Shown here: piece by piece, positions 2,832 through 39,946 of the stretch | Numbering within the stretch: the first letter of the stretch is position 1 | How the letters are laid out: the number at the start of each line of letters is the position of its first letter | Origin: Geobacter sp. FeAm09 | GTDB taxonomy: Bacteria; Desulfobacterota; Desulfuromonadia; Geobacterales; Pseudopelobacteraceae | DNA length: 64,000 nucleotides | Direction of reading: 5' to 3' | NCBI RefSeq assembly: GCF_008330225.1 | Contig: NZ_CP042466.1 | Span: 1 to 64,000, forward strand | The notes under the pieces: model-generated | The model's database searches: none | What the model was told of the DNA's origin: nothing | Seen by the model: the letters and a program-made list of their open reading frames with translations, nothing else | Made by a program: the position numbers and the translations under genes

Positions 2832-4921
2832 ATGTCGAGCCGTTCTCGCCAAACAATGCTGTTTGCTCCGCTGGTCGTCTGTTCTGGCCTGATGTTGCTG
2901 ACGCTGCCGGCCCTTGCCTCCGACGGCGCCGCGCCCGACGTCGGGGTGGAAAATCATGAGGCCCAGGCGGAGTCGGAAACCGAGGCCTATCGTTTCGCCA
3001 CCTCCAGGCGGGATACCAGTTCCTCACCCCCGATGGCCCAGGCGCGGCGGCGGCCCCCTACACGCGTCTGAAATCCGGCCTGGCGGGTGGGTTCTCCGCG
3101 GCACGCTCGACTCCTGCCTCAAGTTGTCGGGGGAGGGCCTCATACTCCACGAGGACGATTATCGCGCCAACCTGTTTCTCGACTATGGCGGCTACTACCG
3201 TCTGCACCTGGAAACCGAGGCCTTCTGGCACAACCTGCTGACGGAGCAGCTTCCCCGGTCAGCCACCGGCCAGTATGCGACAACCCAGTCGCCCGCCCCG
3301 GCGGACGGCTATGGCATGCGTATCGGCATCTCCCAGGTGGAAAACCGCATCAAGCTGGGCAACAACCCCGTCCACATCAACCTGGGATACTGGGAGCTGA
3401 GCCGCCGGGGGACCGATCAGCTCCGTTTCGCCGACTACTATTTCAGCGATCCGCAAACAGGATCGTCTCCATCAACCGGCAGGTCAACCAGGTCACGCGG
3501 GAGGGGAGTGCGGGGGCCGACGCCCACCTGGGATTCTTCGACGTCGCCTACGGGTTCCGCATCAGGGAGTTCTCGAACCAGGCCCCGGACACCCGCTACC
3601 CTTTGCCGTAACCGGCAACGGGGCGCTCGTGCCGGGCACCCAGGCGACCAACGTCGTTTCCGACAGCCGGGTGACGTCCCACACGGTCAGGGTTTATACC
3701 GACATGAGCGGCGGTCTGGTGGGGACGGCCGCCTATGTCCTGACCCAGCGGGAAAACGATGCCGACCGCGGCGATGCGCGCCCCTCGTCCAAACCTACCC
3801 AGACGCTCCATTCGGTGGCGGGAGACCTGACCTATACGCCGTTCAAGGAGCTGTCCCTCGCCCTGAAATACCGGCGGCAGGAGAGCCAGCGGGAGACGCC
3901 CGCGACGATTTCATCCTCCTATTCCCAGATTCCGTCCACGACCACGCTGCCCGGCGTCTATACCTCCACGTCGGGGGTTCTGCTGGTGCGGCCCGGCATC
4001 GACACGACCAAGGATACCTTCACCCTTTCCGGCATGTACCGTCCCAGCCAACAGGTGACGTACCGCCTGGAGTACCGTGCCGTCCTGGAGTCCCGTGACA
4101 ACGTGCCCAACAGCGACCTCTCGCCCGGCGACCCGGCGGCGATCCACAACGAATACCGCCAGACCCATACCGGCCTGGCCAACGTCGCCTGGCGACCGTT
4201 GCCGGGGTTCAAGATGAACGCCACCTACACCTACAAGACGGCGGATAATCCGGAATGGAAGACCTCCGCATCGGAAAGCCACAAGGGGGAGCTGTTTGCC
4301 ACCTATGCGAAAAGCGGCGTCTGGGGGGGTACCGCCAGCTTCATCACCACGTTTGAGCAGAGCGAAAGCTCTGCCTCCACCGTCGCCCCGGCCCCGGTCG
4401 CCAGCTATACCCTCCCCGGGAGAACCGCTCCTATTCGGCCAATGCGAGCCTGTGGTTCACCCCTGTGGAGCGCCTGACCATCACCGCCAACTATTCGTAC
4501 CTGGAGACGGTGACGGACCAGTCCATGCTGTTTTCCAATATCATTGTGGACCCGGACCCGCTCGTGGCGACCACCTACCGGTCCACGGCGCATGTGTACG
4601 GCATCGATGCCGTCTATGCCGTGGCGGAGCCGCTGGACCTCTCCTTCGGCATTCAGCAGGTGCGTTCGGCGGCGCGGTTCGATGTCCCGGTCAGGGTGTT
4701 TACCCTCGCAAACGTGACGGGCAGTTTCGATACCAGCGGCATCACCAGCCTCACCCGGCTGGACACGGTGGAAACCGGCGTAACGGCCCGGGCCCGACTG
4801 GCGCATCAGCAAGCATGTGGGTTGTTCGATGAACTATAGTTTCCGGAATTACAATTCCGGCGATGCTCTCTACGACGGCTCGGTCCACACGACCATGGTG
4901 TCGTTGACTTCACGGTGGTAG
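2832..4921 (+). pseudogene. MtrB/PioB-family outer-membrane beta-barrel, frameshifted
   Basis: The product begins with a signal peptide (MLLTLPALA then SDGAA) and continues as alternating polar/aromatic strands such as MNATYTYKTADN and LTITANYSYLETV. It ends in an aromatic residue (SLTSRW), as outer-membrane barrels do. Its place right after the decaheme cytochrome matches MtrAB/PioAB conduits, in which the barrel sheathes the cytochrome. Frame changes are needed near 3000, 3090, 3460, 3610, 4420 and 4795. Expected length is about 690 residues. Confidence 0.7.
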
Positions 4922-32294: not shown

Positions 32295-32323
32295 AATATA
32301 AACAAATATGTTTATAAAGTCAA
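32295..32323 (-). promoter_or_regulatory. hicAB promoter with overlapping operator
   Basis: On the minus strand TTGACT (32323-32318) and TATATT (32300-32295) are 17 bp apart. An inverted repeat, tataaac (32297-32303) and gtttata (32310-32316), covers the spacer and part of the -10, so bound HicB would exclude RNA polymerase. Confidence 0.65.
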
Positions 32324-32345
32324 TAAAAAAATAAACATAAATGTA

Positions 32346-32922
32346 TATTTTTTGCGGCCACTTTGTTGGCCCGTCGAGGCTTGGCAGGCATTGAACCCGT
32401 TTTTACATACCTCAAGACAGGTCTTTACAAGCCCCTTTAAGCTCCGACACGGCTTAAAGGGGCTTGTTGGGGCTTGCGAGGTCTCCCGAAAGGCCCCGTC
32501 AGGGCTTATCGGGACTTAAGAATCCCCGTAAAGGCCCGTCAGGGCTTTACGGGAAAAGATGTTTTTGGGGATCCATGGTGTGCGGACAGCGTCCGCATCG
32601 TCCACAAGTCCATAGGCCATCGGGCCGTAAGCGAAAGACTAGCTTTCGCGGGCCGATGAGGCTGTGGACCCTGTGGACGAAAGAGCAGTTGGTTACATTC
32701 AGACCTGTCCACATTGTTGGTAACTCCAGCGCACGAAGGAACCGCAGGCGAGTTATCAACATTGTGGGCAGGTCGTCCGGCACCCGAAGGGGCGACGACT
32801 CGCGGCGGTTTGCGAGCCGTCGGGCGTAGCCTGCCGTAGTGGGGACCCGCCGGAGGCGGGTTCGTTTTTCGGAACCGGTCGCGGAGCGACCCCGCGCGAA
32901 TTTTTTACCCAGGGGGAATTAC
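32346..32922. other. Structured non-coding region before the relaxase, candidate oriT
   Basis: 577 bp without a credible gene. It holds a perfect 14-bp inverted repeat (32429-32442 with 32452-32465), a 9-bp one (32525-32533 with 32545-32553), a gcggac/gtccgc hairpin at 32582-32596, the 79-bp repeat copy C, a 9-of-10 stem near 32794-32821 and GC hairpins up to 32900. Origins of transfer of MobF systems usually lie beside the relaxase gene and carry such repeats. The nick site is not identified. Confidence 0.5.
32600..32678 (-). repeat. 79-bp self-complementary repeat, copy C
   Basis: On the minus strand it begins GTCCACAGGGTCCACAG and ends ATGGACTTGTGGAC. The two ends pair with each other; an inner CGAAAG/CTTTCG stem closes the loop. 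It matches copies A (36491) and B (36701) over the full length, with changes mainly in the loop half. It is flanked by a gcggac hairpin in place of the attccctgc hairpin of the other copies. Confidence 0.75.
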
Positions 32923-35784
32923 TTGAAACCCATGAAGATTACGGCTGGCAAGGCGGCCGAATACTATTACCAGGCCGACCCCGTGTTCGGCGACGGTGCC
33001 CAGGGTAATGGCGTCTGGCTAGGCGGCGGAGCCGAGGCCCTGGGCCTTGCCGGCACAGTGGACCTGGAGCAGTTTACCAATCTGCTCTACGGTATGAGTC
33101 CAGACGGCACCGACCGACTCGTCGGCAAGCCAGCCGACCACCACAAGAACGCCGCCACGGACATCATTCTTGACTTTCCAAAGTCCATGTCGCTGATCGC
33201 GCTCTATGACCCGAAGTTCCGTGAGGGGCTCAAAGAAGCGTTGCGGGAGACGGCACAGCACGTGGACCGCCACATCTACGGCCGTCAGACCAGAGACGGC
33301 GAAACTGAGCTGGTCAAGGGCAAGGGCGTTATGGCGCTCTACTTCCACAGCACTAGCCGCGCCAACGACGTCCACATGCACGGTCATCTGGTCAACCTAA
33401 ACATGGTTCAGCGGCCAGATGGCAGTTGGTCAACGTTGGAGAATCGACCGTTGTTCGTGGCTCAGAAGGAGAATCAGCAAGAATTGTACAGCCGCGTTGC
33501 GGTCTTGGCTCGTGAGTGTGGCTATGGGATAGAGCTCTCCCGCAACAAGGGTGGCATGATTGTTCCGGAGATCGCCGGAGTCTCCCGGGAGGTGATTGAG
33601 CAGTTTAGCAAGCGGTGGTCTGACATCAAGGAAGCGGACAAGTTGGCCTCTGTGCTGGCCCAGAAACTACCAGGACTGAACGAAAAGGACATCAACGAGC
33701 TCGTGCAGCTCCACACCAAGGCTGAGAAGAACCTTGCCGTCACTGAAGATGAAATGGTCAAGGGCCACACCATGCAGTTAAGGGCCATGGGGACCTCCCC
33801 CGAGCAGTTGCTCATCACTGCCAAGGAACTCGGTTCCACTCAGAAGTTATCTGGAATGACCGCCCGTGACTACATCAAAACGGCCACAACGGACCTCGTG
33901 GAACATGAATCCGTTGTTAGTGGCTCAAAAATCGTTTCTGAGGCGGTCAAGATATCGGTAGGGGAAATGACCAGGCCTGAACTTGAAGCGGCTTTCCAAG
34001 AGGCACGAATGGCCGGAGAATTCGTCAACTACGGTAAGGACCGGTTCTCCACACCCGAAATGCAGCACATGGAAGTTATGGTTGCCGAAACTGCGGTACG
34101 CGGGCGGGAGGCCTTCACTCCGCTCATGTCGCCGGAGGCTGCCCGGGCGGCGGTGGAGGACTTCGAGGCGGCCCGGGGGATCAAGGCCACGGACGGCCAG
34201 ACCCGGTCCATTGAGTATGTTCTGACCGGGAGTGGAAGGTTGATGTTGATCCAAGGGGACGCCGGCGCCGGGAAGTCCACGGCCTTCGCAGCGATATTCG
34301 CATCCCTGAAGGATCGGGAAGATGTGACGGCCCGGGGTTTCGGCTTCCAGGGTAAGGCCGCCGCCGAGTTACAGCGCAGCTCCGGGCTGTCGAGCCAAAC
34401 CATAGATTCCTTCCTGCTTTCCAAGCCGACCGAAGATACCGGCCGGCAGCTCTGGGTTGTGGACGAGGCCTCCATGGTTGGTAGCCGTCACTTGCACGGC
34501 ATGATGGAGCGGGCACTTCAGGAAAACGCCCAGATCGTGCTTGTAGGTGACGGCAAGCAAATAGCGGCTATTGCCGCCGGCAAATTGTTCCTGGACTTAC
34601 AGGAGCATGGGCTGGTGGAGAGCTCGCGTATGGAGGAAATACAGCGGCAGAAGACCGGCTACACCAAGGAGATCGCAGCGCATTTGAAGAACCATGACGT
34701 AGGCGCCGCCTTCTCGGTCTTGGACCGCGAAGGCAACATCTACGAGATAAAGGATAGGGAGGAGCGAATTCAGTTCGCAGCCGAGCGGTACGTGGCGGCC
34801 GGCAAGGACGCACTGATTATGACCGTCACCAACCGTGACCGGAAAGACCTGATCGAGGCAATCCGCGCCATGGAGAAGGCATGTGGAAGAATCGGAGAAG
34901 AGGATCACGTCTTCAACGTCCGGACGCCGGTTAATCTCATTGGCATCGACAAGAGGCTAGCAGCCTCGTACGAGCCGGGCAACATGGTATTCCTGCGGGA
35001 TGACGTTGCAGGCCTGCGGCGAGGGAGCGAGGCGCAGATCATCGAGCGTGACACTGGCAGCAACACGATCAGGGTAAGGGATGTGGGCGGCCGGGAGCAC
35101 GACATCGACCTGCGTCGGCATGGAGGAGACCTGTCGCAGTTTGAGGAAAAAGCGACACCGTTCAGCATTGGCGAAAAGGTCATGTGGACCAAGAATGACA
35201 ACAGCGAATATGGGAAGAATAACAGCCTGAAAAATAGCGTCGCCGGGCATCTTCAAGTGTTTAATGATGACGGGACATCACAGATTCTGACTGAACATGG
35301 CAATCTGGTCAAGATTCAAATGGAAGGTGCCTACATTACCAATGGCCAGGGGGCCACCATCGACAAGGCCCAGGGGGTAACCGCAGAGTTCTGCATCACA
35401 ATGATGCCGTCCGACGCGCCGGCAGAGCTGCTGTCTGAAAATAAAAACTACGTGGCCATGACACGCATGACCCACGAGCTGGAACTGATAACGGACTCAA
35501 AAGAAGACCTGCTGGAGATGGTCGATGATCCGCAAATCAAGACATCCACACTGGAGCACATGTCACAGCGGATTGCAGAACTCAAGGAGAGCGCGGAACA
35601 GTCCCTGGCCGACCAGAGGGAAGAACTAGAGCACCTGACCGATCAAGAGACATCAGCGAACCGGCAGATCGACCGACAACTGCTCCTGGAGCAGGAGTTG
35701 AATATTACTGATGCAGTCGAGAAAGAACATGAGCCTGTTCATGATCATGATCACGGTCATGATGACATGGAAGTAGGCCTATAA
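32923..35784 (+). CDS. traI: MobF-family conjugative relaxase/helicase (TraI/TrwC-like)
   Basis: 953 aa. The TTG at 32923 has AGGGGGA six bases upstream; an ATG at 32932 is the alternative. The relaxase domain shows the tyrosine cluster YYY (14-16) and the metal-binding motif HMHGHLVNLN. A RecD-like helicase follows, with Walker A GDAGAGKST (about 445-453) and Walker B LWVVDEASMV, and a UvrD-C-like end (QGATIDKAQGVTAE, NYVAMTRMTHE). The C-terminus is acidic and His-rich. It nicks oriT, stays bound to the 5' end and unwinds the transferred strand. Confidence 0.9.
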   Translation: MKPMKITAGKAAEYYYQADPVFGDGAQGNGVWLGGGAEALGLAGTVDLEQFTNLLYGMSPDGTDRLVGKPADHHKNAATDIILDFPKSMSLIALYDPKFREGLKEALRETAQHVDRHIYGRQTRDGETELVKGKGVMALYFHSTSRANDVHMHGHLVNLNMVQRPDGSWSTLENRPLFVAQKENQQELYSRVAVLARECGYGIELSRNKGGMIVPEIAGVSREVIEQFSKRWSDIKEADKLASVLAQKLPGLNEKDINELVQLHTKAEKNLAVTEDEMVKGHTMQLRAMGTSPEQLLITAKELGSTQKLSGMTARDYIKTATTDLVEHESVVSGSKIVSEAVKISVGEMTRPELEAAFQEARMAGEFVNYGKDRFSTPEMQHMEVMVAETAVRGREAFTPLMSPEAARAAVEDFEAARGIKATDGQTRSIEYVLTGSGRLMLIQGDAGAGKSTAFAAIFASLKDREDVTARGFGFQGKAAAELQRSSGLSSQTIDSFLLSKPTEDTGRQLWVVDEASMVGSRHLHGMMERALQENAQIVLVGDGKQIAAIAAGKLFLDLQEHGLVESSRMEEIQRQKTGYTKEIAAHLKNHDVGAAFSVLDREGNIYEIKDREERIQFAAERYVAAGKDALIMTVTNRDRKDLIEAIRAMEKACGRIGEEDHVFNVRTPVNLIGIDKRLAASYEPGNMVFLRDDVAGLRRGSEAQIIERDTGSNTIRVRDVGGREHDIDLRRHGGDLSQFEEKATPFSIGEKVMWTKNDNSEYGKNNSLKNSVAGHLQVFNDDGTSQILTEHGNLVKIQMEGAYITNGQGATIDKAQGVTAEFCITMMPSDAPAELLSENKNYVAMTRMTHELELITDSKEDLLEMVDDPQIKTSTLEHMSQRIAELKESAEQSLADQREELEHLTDQETSANRQIDRQLLLEQELNITDAVEKEHEPVHDHDHGHDDMEVGL

Positions 35785-35803
35785 CAACCTGGAGGAAAAG
35801 ACC

Positions 35804-36037
35804 ATGGCAAAGCAGAAACCAACGGCTGATGAAATGTTGAAGCGGGCACAAGCGATGCTCAAGAAGGCGTCGGCTGCCAAGAAGGAGGAAGAGAGGGCAA
35901 AACTGGTCAGGCTAGGCCAGCTCTTGACGGATTGTCTGAATGAGAAAATTACCGTGGAGCAGATGCTGACCGAAGCAAACGAAGTCGCAAGGCTTACGGG
36001 TGCAGGTGCAGTCAAAGGTGCAGTGAATGAAACCTGA
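35804..36037 (+). CDS. 77-aa helical protein after the relaxase
   Basis: Begins MAKQKPTADEMLKRAQAMLKK and continues as one charged helix (AKKEEERAKLVRLGQLLTDCL) with a short tail. GGAGG precedes the ATG. No family is recognised; basic coiled-coil proteins in this place can be relaxosome accessory factors. It overlaps the next small gene by 11 bp. Confidence 0.55.
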   Translation: MAKQKPTADEMLKRAQAMLKKASAAKKEEERAKLVRLGQLLTDCLNEKITVEQMLTEANEVARLTGAGAVKGAVNET

Positions 36038-36257
36038 AAACGACGCCTGTGAACGGATCAAGGGCATGCTTGCGAAGATCGAGCAAGGAACGATCGAGCC
36101 GTATGAAGGATTCAGAAACATCCGCTGGCACGCCGACTTGTACATGGTGTGGGCAGATATGACCGGACCGGCTCCCCGGCCTGTGGTTGAGGAGCCGGGG
36201 AATGCTGATGCAGGTCAGGCTGAATTTGCCGATGTCAGGCTCCACGTGGAGAGGTAA
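36027..36257 (+). CDS. 76-aa hypothetical protein
   Basis: Starts MKPENDACERIKGMLAKIEQG, contains FRNIRWHADLYMVWADM and ends in a proline/acid-rich tail. It overlaps the previous gene by 11 bp, indicating coupling. No known family. The gene is followed by about 930 bp without coding capacity. Confidence 0.5.
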   Translation: MKPENDACERIKGMLAKIEQGTIEPYEGFRNIRWHADLYMVWADMTGPAPRPVVEEPGNADAGQAEFADVRLHVER

Positions 36258-36490
36258 TCGATGGCTGAATTATCTGCTCCACAACTGGCATATGGGCGTT
36301 CCCCCTTCGGGGCCGTTCTGGCGGTCTGCGACCCAAGCCTCGCATGCCCCCGCGAGTCTTGGCCCTGCGGGCGCCGGCCACTGAACGCAAAACCTCTATC
36401 GAGCGTAAGCCCACGGCCCAAAGCGGCAGGCCGCGAACTTACGCTCGAAGCTTCACTCCCTCCAGTCGCAAAGCTAACCCAAAATCTCTC

Positions 36491-36569
36491 GTCCACAGGG
36501 TCCACAGCCTCATCGGTCCACGAAATCCGGTCTTTCGCTTACGGCCCGATGGCCTATGGACTTGTGGAC
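36491..36569 (+). repeat. 79-bp self-complementary repeat, copy A
   Basis: Begins GTCCACAGGGTCCACAG, ends ATGGACTTGTGGAC. It is followed by a 10-bp hairpin (attccctgca) with an A-rich loop and then ggaagtca and aatcaacacc. The same downstream order follows copy B exactly 210 bp later. Confidence 0.75.
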
Positions 36570-36700
36570 GATCATTCCCTGCAAAAAAAATGCAGGGAAT
36601 GGAAGTCAAAATCAACACCGAATAACCTGACAAAATTGTCGATGTTTGTAGGTTCACATTATTCAAGCTGCATTGTTGACGATGTTGAAAACCGCTTGTC

Positions 36701-36779
36701 GTCCACAGGGTCCACAGCCTCATCGGTCTGCGAAAGCTGGCCTTTCGCTTACAGACCGATGGCCTATGGACTTGTGGAC
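36701..36779 (+). repeat. 79-bp self-complementary repeat, copy B
   Basis: Identical to copy A in both arms. The inner segment differs, but still pairs: CGGTCTG with CAGACCG and CGAAAG with CTTTCG. It is followed by an attccctgc/gcagggaat hairpin. Confidence 0.75.
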
Positions 36780-37190
36780 GATCATTCCCTGCAAAATACC
36801 GCAGGGAATGGAAGTCATAATCAACACCCGAACACCCGAGTTGCGTTGCTTTTTGCTCTACGTTCCAAAGGGGAATTTATTCCCCTTTGGAACCCTTCCG
36901 ACATCTGTGACAGCAGCATCAAAAATCAACACCTCAAAACCGAAATTCAAAGGCAGGAAAGTGGTCATTCTGACGATGAAAAACAGACAACGGGAAACAT
37001 GGCACCCCACGCAAGCTCGCGCATGCCATGTAAGGCAAAAATCTGCACCAACACATCAAAATCATTAAATAAATGTTGGCTGCCACGTTTTGAGGGCGTC
37101 GGCGGCCAAATGGCAGCCGATTGTTTTTAACAGTTTGAAATATCAAGTAATTTGTCGGCTGCCGTTTGGCCGCCAATTTCAGGGGGAAAC

Positions 37191-37508
37191 ATGACCAAAG
37201 CAAATCGAATTGTGGTGCGGTTGGATGATGAGACTGATCGGTTGCTGTCAGCATTCGCCGGACGGCGAAAAACGAATCGTGCAGACGCCGTGAGAGAAGC
37301 CATAAAAATGGCGGCCAGCGATGCGGGTCCACAGAGGGTCGCGGACCATCTCGAAGAGATTGTTCGGCGATTGGCAGACATGCCAGCGATAGCGAAAAAC
37401 ATGCTGTCACTTTCGGCCCAAATGGGCGACATGGCAGAGGCGAACAACGCCAATACGGATCGCATTGCTGGCATCCTGAAAATACTCCTCGAAAGGACAA
37501 AGCAATGA
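37191..37508 (+). CDS. Ribbon-helix-helix protein, likely relaxosome accessory
   Basis: 105 aa. The N-terminus (RIVVRLDDETDRLLSAFAGR, then RADAVREAIKM) fits a ribbon-helix-helix DNA-binding domain. The rest is a coiled coil (RVADHLEEIVRRLADMP). GGGGGA precedes the ATG at 37191. It is upstream of the coupling protein and could bind oriT or the adjacent repeats, like MobC or TraM-type factors. Its stop overlaps the next start as ATGA. Confidence 0.65.
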   Translation: MTKANRIVVRLDDETDRLLSAFAGRRKTNRADAVREAIKMAASDAGPQRVADHLEEIVRRLADMPAIAKNMLSLSAQMGDMAEANNANTDRIAGILKILLERTKQ

Positions 37509-38068: not shown

Positions 38069-39946
38069 ATGGCTCGATATGGAAACGACAATGTGATAGA
38101 CGGCACCCTGTCACAGACCACCCGGATGCGGATGCGGTGGCAGGGGTTCAAGATCCGGCTGATTGTGTCTCTCTCAGTCGGAATTATGGCCGGAGCCGGC
38201 GCAATCTTTTTGAAGCCGCCGCGGCCAGTTCCGATTCAGGAACTGGGACCGGAGGCGCATGTAGGTTTCATAGACCAAGTGCAATGGAAACTGGCCGAGC
38301 ATAATGTTCCGAAGGTCCAATTTCCCCGCATACTTCATATCGTGGCCGACCTGCCGGAACAGTATAGGGAAGCGGGGCTGTTGTTGGTAATTGCTGCGGT
38401 AAAAAAATACTGGATGCAGTTCATGTGGTATCTGGGTGCCGGACTGAGTGCCGGGGTCATCACGTACTGGATGATGGTGCGGAGCTCTCATAAGGAAATG
38501 AGGTCTCGTACTGAGGATCAATATGTGCGTGGGTCGAGGCTTGTCAGCGTTGATAGGCTGACCAAGGAAACTAGACGGGAGGGTTCCAGACTCCAACTGG
38601 CAGGGGGCTGGGTGCCACAAAGTCACGAACTTTCTCCGTGGTCATTTGTGGGGAGACCTCGGATTGGTAAAACCGTTGCACTTAAATCACTGCTCGATCA
38701 GGTGATGGACATCGGTGCGAGGATAATTTTTGACTCAAAGGGGGATATGATCGTCAGCCATTACCGTCCCGGGGATTTAATCTTCGCGCCAGCAGTCGAT
38801 CAACGGTCACTCACGTGGACTATCTTCAACGACATCACATCGGTTTCGCAGATCGCAAGCATCGCCGCGGCGCTGATCCCGGAAGGGACCGGAAACAACA
38901 AAATGTGGGCGGTGGGTGCGCGAGAGGTCCTGGAAGGACTCATACTTCATGCATTCTACAAAGGAAAAAAGACGAATAGGGAGTTGTGGAATCTCTGCTG
39001 CCTCGACCCGGAACGAATGCACGGAATCCTTAGCGAGACTCCGGGGGCGGAACGGGCGGCCGGCATGCTGGCCAACCCGAAATCGAATACGGCATATTCG
39101 TTCTATGTCTCGCTGATTGCGTTCCTCAAACCTATTCAGTTGCTGGCCAAGATGGACGGCCCGTTTAGCGTCAACGCCTGGCTCAATTCCGATCCTGCAA
39201 ACAGCATTTTCATCGTGGCGACGCCCGAGCATCAGGAGGCGCTCAAGCCGGTCATGAGCCTGTTCCTCTCAATGATGATCAATTCGCATCTATCGATGCC
39301 GGACGATCTGGACCGGAGGATCTGGTACTTTCTGGACGAACTCACAATTCTGCCGAAGATCGAGAAGCTCATCGACGCCATCAACTTTGGGCCAAGCAAG
39401 GGGCTCATCTGTATCCTTGGATTTCAGGCGCTGCAGCTACTCGATGAAATTTACGGCCAACGGAACAGGGAGACTCTCTGGTCAGCGGTCGGCACCCATG
39501 TGATGTTCTCGGTTGGAGAACGGGCCACCCAGATGAAGATATGCGAGGCGATCGGTGAGATGGAGGTCCTGGAGCATCGGAGCACCATGTCGATCGGAAT
39601 CACCGATAGCCGCGACGGTGCGTCGGCCATGGAGCAACTCACCAAGCGGGTCCTGGTCATGCCAGACGAGATCAAGGATCTGCCAAAGTTGACAGCGTAT
39701 CTGAAAATCCTGGGATTTCCCGCTGCGAAGCTCAAATTCACCTACAAGCCATATAAGAAGGTCGCAGAGGGACTGGTGCCCGACCCAGGCTTCAGCATAG
39801 ACGAGTTTATCCGCGAGTTGGTGGCCCTGAAACGCCGGGCTGGGACAGTGGAACAGGAAGTGTCCAACGAATTGGAGCGGACCAGGGAGCGCGCGGCCGA
39901 GGAACAGCAGGCTATGGAATCTGGAGGAGAGGTATCTGAATGGTAG
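38069..39946 (+). CDS. traD: Type IV coupling protein (TraD/VirD4 family)
   Basis: 625 aa. Two N-terminal transmembrane regions (RLIVSLSVGIMAGAGAIFL and FMWYLGAGLSAGVITYWMM) precede the ATPase with Walker A GRPRIGKT (195-202), Walker B IWYFLDELTILPK and a conserved GLICILGFQALQLLDEIYG. It links the relaxosome to the secretion channel and pumps DNA. The C-terminus is acidic. GGAGG lies before the ATG. Confidence 0.9.
   Translation: MARYGNDNVIDGTLSQTTRMRMRWQGFKIRLIVSLSVGIMAGAGAIFLKPPRPVPIQELGPEAHVGFIDQVQWKLAEHNVPKVQFPRILHIVADLPEQYREAGLLLVIAAVKKYWMQFMWYLGAGLSAGVITYWMMVRSSHKEMRSRTEDQYVRGSRLVSVDRLTKETRREGSRLQLAGGWVPQSHELSPWSFVGRPRIGKTVALKSLLDQVMDIGARIIFDSKGDMIVSHYRPGDLIFAPAVDQRSLTWTIFNDITSVSQIASIAAALIPEGTGNNKMWAVGAREVLEGLILHAFYKGKKTNRELWNLCCLDPERMHGILSETPGAERAAGMLANPKSNTAYSFYVSLIAFLKPIQLLAKMDGPFSVNAWLNSDPANSIFIVATPEHQEALKPVMSLFLSMMINSHLSMPDDLDRRIWYFLDELTILPKIEKLIDAINFGPSKGLICILGFQALQLLDEIYGQRNRETLWSAVGTHVMFSVGERATQMKICEAIGEMEVLEHRSTMSIGITDSRDGASAMEQLTKRVLVMPDEIKDLPKLTAYLKILGFPAAKLKFTYKPYKKVAEGLVPDPGFSIDEFIRELVALKRRAGTVEQEVSNELERTRERAAEEQQAMESGGEVSEW

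Follow-up and report, generated by a model that had tools for sequence, protein, structure and literature searches.

The stretch of DNA analysed here, called the window, comprises 64,000 nucleotides of Geobacter sp. FeAm09 (contig NZ_CP042466.1, positions 1 to 64,000), and our subject is a hairpin-forming repeat that surrounds a relaxase gene within it. The TrwC-type relaxase gene (32839-35784, plus strand; Pfam TrwC, E 9.7e-49) lies between an inverted copy of the repeat placed upstream of it, C (32598-32680, minus strand), and two plus-strand copies, A (36489-36571) and B (36699-36781). Each hairpin has a 79-nt core and measures 83 nt once the outer TC/GA bases are counted. A sequence-only reading of this DNA, made by a model, had reported three copies at these places around the relaxase locus, with A and B 210 bp apart, and both statements were borne out, the distance being measured from start to start. 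As that reading also said, A and B are each followed by a second hairpin and then by AATCAACACC, and copy C by a different hairpin. Downstream of both A and B the second hairpin is of the CATTCCCTGC..GCAGGGAATG type; after A it occupies 36573-36601 (CATTCCCTGCA..TGCAGGGAATG), with AATCAACACC at 36610-36619, and after B it occupies 36783-36810 (CATTCCCTGC..GCAGGGAATG), with AATCAACACC at 36819-36828, all on the plus strand. Downstream of the A/B array lie a ribbon-helix-helix (RHH) gene (37152-37508, plus strand; Pfam RHH_1, E 1.4e-4) and a gene for a TrwB-type coupling protein (38069-39946, plus strand; Pfam TrwB_AAD_bind, E 4.4e-79).

The three repeats fold better than chance. As RNA, each copy folded better than shuffled sequences (z -3.9, -7.2 and -6.3), and as DNA the z values of A, B and C on either strand ranged from -3.6 to -10.0; shuffled sequences equalled the real one in 1 of 200 cases for the plus strand of A and in 0 of 200 in each of the other five foldings. 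An energy-based scan of the window picked C, B and a further hairpin at 37101-37174. The change of a stem pair from C-G to T-A in copy B, pointed out in the sequence-only reading, was confirmed, and over seven copies (three from the window, four from elsewhere) paired two-sided changes were present at 8 of the 33 predicted pairs.

In its own genome the repeat has one further full copy, D (3384382-3384462), the other five of the nine matches being fragments of 14-21 nt. Copy D lies about 5 kb after the second TrwC relaxase gene of this genome, and the relaxase encoded there is 29% identical to that of the window. The region around it (3376000-3393000) is another TrwC-bearing element; its phage-type integrase gene has as a close neighbour a gene reading like serine-tRNA ligase. 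A DNA search of 196 genomes gave matches at E up to 0.01 in six of them, the own one counted; full copies outside the own genome were found in this search only in G021, a Desulfuromonadales metagenome-assembled genome (MAG). Both arms were present in G069, in the other order; the weak matches in G031 and G162 came without such a hairpin, and that in G108 was a tandem repeat. A relaxed arm pattern was found in 1 of 395 genomes of the phylum, namely the own genome, G021 standing outside that list. A plasmid search with the 460-bp array gave no match, and a phage search with copy A gave seven records, at E 3-9 only.

G021 repeats the layout of the window: one copy precedes the relaxase gene in inverted orientation, two tandem copies follow it at a distance of 210 bp, and each of these two is succeeded by the same second hairpin and AATCAACACC. 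The relaxase gene spans two contigs overlapping by 35 nt; the part compared is 27% identical to the window relaxase over 387 alignment columns, and the coupling proteins are 25% identical over 499 alignment columns. The three G021 hairpins are 79-94% identical to copy B. Between G021 and the window, the hairpins are better conserved than the surrounding proteins. A further hairpin with CCGTCCACAAGC..GCTTGTGGACGG ends stands before the two tandem copies of G021 (L021, 4065-4147), where model R1 scores 30 bits.

The arms CCACAGGGTCCA..TGGACTTGTGG were found in 43 contig stretches: 32 of Legionellaceae (22 from one genome), two G021 contigs and nine others. Copies outside the element, on whose existence the sequence-only reading had made its case depend, thus occur in the own genome, G021, further contigs and viral stretches, and the idea of a repeat private to its own genome is rejected. 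Among three Legionellaceae loci with listed genes, the hairpin directly follows a transposase-like gene in L055 and L059, and no such gene was seen in L041. By eye this gene resembles the IS3 protein of a Legionella antarctica plasmid (L199), on which the hairpin directly follows the annotated transposase (rve domain) and lies inside the IS3 insertion sequence (IS) element, between inverted repeats at 2825-2839 and 4193-4207. In a Planctomycetota MAG (L060) the hairpin is upstream of a NikA-like gene (below cut-off) and TrwB and TrwC genes, which is the position of A and B in the window. Elsewhere it stands before IS66 genes (L064) or beside an IS110 fragment (L069); bounding inverted repeats were sought at these two loci and none was found. 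A scan of a single neighbouring protein at each of L040, L043 and L079 gave none of a mobile element; outside Legionellaceae and G021, the survey of neighbouring genes covered the loci other than L063.

Plasmid replication regions form another setting. The hairpin lies about 260 bp after a RepA_C gene in L037 and L039, and such a gene was upstream in all five loci of this kind that were scanned, the others being pXAC64 (L198), the IncW plasmid R7K (L200) and a contig of a viral collection (L224), in which the structure again follows the RepA_C gene. Both arms are present in reversed order, which puts the loop at the opposite end, in pXAC64, two viral-collection contigs (L223 and L224) and the G069 contig; in R7K there is just the outer box pair. 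With the pXAC64 stretch as query, 83 plasmid records were returned, 75 of them typed conjugative. With the Legionella-type hairpin, 30 plasmid records were returned, comprising one full-length match (L. antarctica), the pXAC64 arm and otherwise chance-like matches; the phage search with it gave one record (E 8), and the plasmid search with the L060 hairpin gave 12 records (E 9).

The family is also carried by single-stranded-DNA (ssDNA) phages. The relaxed pattern was present in 22 viral stretches, 10 of which are Microviridae by their capsid and replication proteins (the L036 capsid matches Phage_F at E 1.3e-160); in the remaining 12 no microvirus protein was found. An arm-only 15-mer, used as a control in viral contigs, matched at least 120 viral stretches; among the matches listed, which comprised L035 and 79 new loci, none of the 79 was a microvirus and none had the second arm. 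A phage search with the microvirus hairpin gave one record (E 0.9). In all 10 Microviridae the hairpin is intergenic: it follows the major capsid gene in L035, L036, L204 and L213, precedes the replication gene in L205-L209 and follows it in L210. The complementary-strand origins of phiX174 and G4 are hairpins in an intergenic region, and by position alone the microvirus hairpins, above all the four after the capsid gene, are like them; those beside the replication gene are placed differently. A covariance-model match (E 2.2e-9) was found in a stretch of G006 with a phage integrase, whose gene layout weakly suggests an inovirus-like phage; its putative replication protein matched no Pfam family. 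Weak covariance-model matches in G005 and G014 were folded and then excluded from all counts. Inside a listed open reading frame of a 46-kb viral contig (L237, 6629-6701) lies an almost perfect hairpin, each arm of which has three GTCCACA-type boxes.

To describe the structure common to these copies we aligned the two arms, X and Y, of 15 representatives (23 arm pairs) and compared the alignment with 500 shuffles. Paired cells made up 85.5% (77.0% when shuffled, 31.7-41.2% when slid), a value reached by none of the shuffles. Cells changed on both sides with the pair kept numbered 40 (shuffled mean 15.1, sd 3.2; 0 of 500), and the covariation score was 0.250 as against 0.097 when shuffled (0 of 500). 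Less striking were the pairs changed on both sides (9 versus 6.7; 22 of 500) and the pair types (22 versus 19.6; 95 of 500). Little can be concluded from columns 10-21 and 30-40, which the search patterns set wholly or for the most part; columns 1-9, 22-29 and 41-49 are free. The hairpin is under selection. Each arm contains two boxes about one helical turn apart, with a one-base bulge between them. In the free columns, box position 3 (column 8) varies yet is paired in 15 of 15 representatives, and box position 4 (column 9) lacks a partner in 10 of 15. At the end of the stem and in the second box, columns 1-3, 22 and 24 are likewise unpaired in 5-8 of 15. Of the 22 stretches matched by the bulged pattern, 10 were microviruses; equal spacing of 8/8 gave 1 in 15 (L241, a bulge-less relative) and of 9/9 gave 0 in 1. 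As the search pattern sets the bulge spacing, only the copies that BLAST or a covariance model found lend the bulge independent support.

The sequence of the outer box is telling. Outside the window's lineage, the four pattern-free bases that precede CCACA on the Y side are TT[A/G/T]T in 24 of 26 distinct hairpins, and by the DnaA-box consensus box 1 in these 24 reads as a DnaA box (TTATCCACA or a variant, i.e. TT[A/G/T]TCCACA). The dnaA region of the host has TTATCCACA twice. Beside copy C an extra hairpin (32702-32774) has two facing DnaA-box-like sequences, CTG[T/C]CCACA and TTA[T/C]CAACA, both unpaired or wobble-paired at the same box position; either strand of it folds as DNA (z -4.6 and -4.0), and it was the top match of a box-hairpin scan across the window.

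The unpaired position offers a hint about the strand. The genes of Microviridae lie on the virion strand, and the X arm is on this coding strand in 3 of the 10 microviruses and on the other strand in 7. The three with X on the coding strand (L036, L204, L213) have C at position 4, which makes C.A on that strand; six of the seven others (L035, L205-L209) have A there, which makes T.T on the coding strand. In L210 the position is paired, and a G.T wobble on the coding strand occurs in 0 of 10. The coding, virion strand may thus be the one that folds, and this is only a hint because the 10 microviruses represent about five related groups.

A conserved hairpin with recurring boxes and a localized unpaired position, present in ssDNA phages and in plasmid replication and transfer regions, points to a site where the copying of a single strand begins. 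We propose, with a probability of roughly one in two, that the repeats of the window are single-strand initiation hairpins which would recruit DnaA, and then DnaB, while the DNA is single-stranded. Such a phase exists in the genomes of the 10 Microviridae and in TrwC elements. In the window's element, the repeat would fold back once its DNA became single-stranded, either as the transferred strand in conjugation or as an exposed template strand in replication. The folded stem would then offer two box-like sites about one helical turn apart with the one-base bulge between them, the outer being a putative DnaA box in most of the family; host DnaA could bind there and load DnaB, primase would follow, and the complementary strand would be begun. 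We infer DnaA binding, DnaB loading, priming and the strand used in this element from sequence and folding. Among the three guesses of the sequence-only reading, the single-strand initiation site is the one that fits best, given the same arms in ssDNA phages and plasmid replication regions; the RNA family and the relaxosome or partition array have lost ground, as set out below.

Several observations weigh against this interpretation. The window's own copies read TCGTCCACA, i.e. TCGT before CCACA, which agrees with TTATCCACA at 7 of 9 positions, and none of A, B and C leaves box position 4 unpaired, so that two marks of the family are weak precisely here. Eight of the 26 distinct hairpins are close Legionellaceae-type relatives, and the 26 are therefore not independent cases. 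It would be strange for a DnaA site to conserve a mismatch within its box. A long single-stranded phase is not evident for IS3 and IS66 elements. R6K, from which DnaA-dependent initiation is known, has DnaA boxes, but no paired-box hairpin was found in it. The box-hairpin scan, moreover, found the structure in 0 of 11 other microviruses (10 of the best 24 of 3490 records, and L202 from the weak E 0.9 phage match) and in 0 of 28 further TrwC loci (30 loci minus the two own ones), each covered with only some 1.5 kb of flank. These zeros are lower bounds: at the setting used, the scan finds C and 32702-32774 in the window and misses A and B, stricter settings lost known copies, and an array as distant from the relaxase domain as A/B would escape. 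Among the motif-chosen microviruses (the 10 and L241) CCACA was the top k-mer, present in 11 of 11 as against 3 for the next, partly by construction, and it was found in 0 of the 11 others. The module is optional.

The nearest described counterpart appears to be the ABC-primosome A site (Masai, Nomura and Arai 1990). It is reported to be a hairpin formed in ssDNA and containing a DnaA box, where DnaA recruits DnaB and primase follows (PMC6127211). The window-family hairpin shares the ssDNA fold and the DnaA box in the stem, and its proposed readers would be DnaA, then DnaB, DnaC and primase. The template described there has one DnaA box; the present hairpin differs in carrying two boxes in each stem, a bulge of one base, an inner stem-loop that is paired and, in most families, an unpaired box position. 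The RepA_C oriV regions of R7K and pXAC64 are similar in their TTGTGGACAA..TTGCCCACAA pairs, the same unpaired box position and the location downstream of RepA, and differ from the window hairpins in the order of the arms, the loop at the other end and, in R7K, the missing second box. Literature searches found no report of the R7K/pXAC64 oriV hairpins, and a search with the arm sequences returned only papers unrelated by title.

The same distribution over ssDNA phages and transfer and replication regions would be expected of a single-strand initiation site read by another host factor, through PriA-type primosome assembly or primase alone, with the likeness to a DnaA box being incidental. The weak box in the window's lineage favours this explanation, whereas the DnaA-box look of 24 of 26 distinct hairpins, arising in bases free of the pattern, speaks against it, and we consider it unlikely, if worth bearing in mind. 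The repeat might otherwise be a passenger, a small mobile or REP-like hairpin spreading among mobile elements without serving them, as could be suggested by the abundance of nearly identical copies in a single Legionella genome (22 of 43 stretches), which by flank identity are copies of one element. These copies, however, travel inside IS3 elements and not alone; flanks and loops are wholly different between families with the pairing kept, and G021 conserves the position and spacing of all three copies. A mere passenger is therefore quite improbable.

A structured RNA, or an RNA-level signal in transfer operons, would agree with the folding of the repeats as RNA and with their covariation. Orientation to genes, however, is kept neither in the window (A and B versus C) nor in the microviruses (3 versus 7), and the Rfam covariance-model search gave no match over the repeats, only a microRNA model at 37098-37177, outside them and far under the family threshold. 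Eight terminator-like sites (a GC stem and a T run) in 32300-37300 all lie outside the three repeats, so an intrinsic terminator is rejected, and no promoter-like site lies within them either. The non-coding RNA is accordingly rejected as the guess it was, and RNA-level roles as a whole seem very unlikely. A binding site of the element's own relaxase or RHH protein, as in a relaxosome, would suit the place of A and B upstream of the RHH and coupling-protein genes, and the like place of the L060 hairpin. Microviruses and IS3 elements carry the same arms, though, and copy D stands beside a relaxase gene whose product is only 29% identical; we reject a relaxase- or RHH-specific site as the whole answer and hold this explanation to be highly improbable. 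An Frpo-kind ssDNA promoter read by RNA polymerase is just as improbable: Frpo/ssi sites are described (PMC11541004, PMC7690428) as likewise folded ssDNA in transfer regions, which for Frpo means the leading region in conjugative plasmids, and the host reads them ahead of or during second-strand synthesis, but the present family also occurs in microviruses and IS elements, and a scan of duplex sequence only found no -35/-10 pair in the repeats and a single sigma-70-like site in 32300-37300 (shuffled mean 2.1), outside them.

Other structures were observed around the relaxase gene. The hairpin at 37101-37174 is long, with 20-bp arms that are 95% complementary (DNA fold z -8.0), and lies just upstream of the first RHH start codon and overlaps it; it is a candidate operator or part of oriT. 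A second inverted repeat, 46 nt long and 74% complementary (32790-32835 and 36320-36365), flanks the relaxase gene inside the hairpin copies, and GCAGGCTACGCCCGG-like stretches, as in this repeat, occur twice in G021 (L021, near 3810 and 4310). Three consecutive GC-rich hairpins at 32433-32554, upstream of copy C, have a similar counterpart at the same place in G021 (L022, about 3690-3820). At 36867-36933 there is a third, different hairpin (CCAAAGGGGAA..TTCCCCTTTGG), with another AAAATCAACACC some way on, as if it were a third, degenerate unit of the A/B array.

More broadly, and tentatively, one portable host-read priming hairpin, with tandem boxes, an unpaired position and a bulge, might be common to unrelated ssDNA phages, conjugative elements, theta-plasmid origins and copy-out insertion sequences, the unpaired position marking folded invader ssDNA as distinct from host duplex boxes; in IS3 it might start the second strand of the copied-out intermediate. 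Of all the settings, IS3 is the one least expected. Since IS3 moves by copy-out, the hairpins would, speculatively, fit second-strand synthesis of that intermediate. The IS3 copies would also allow a role of primosome loading in copy-out transposition to be tested directly. The start of the second strand on a transferred or viral single strand has been worked out in few elements, and a signature combining sequence and structure may allow start points to be predicted in uncultured phages and conjugative elements.

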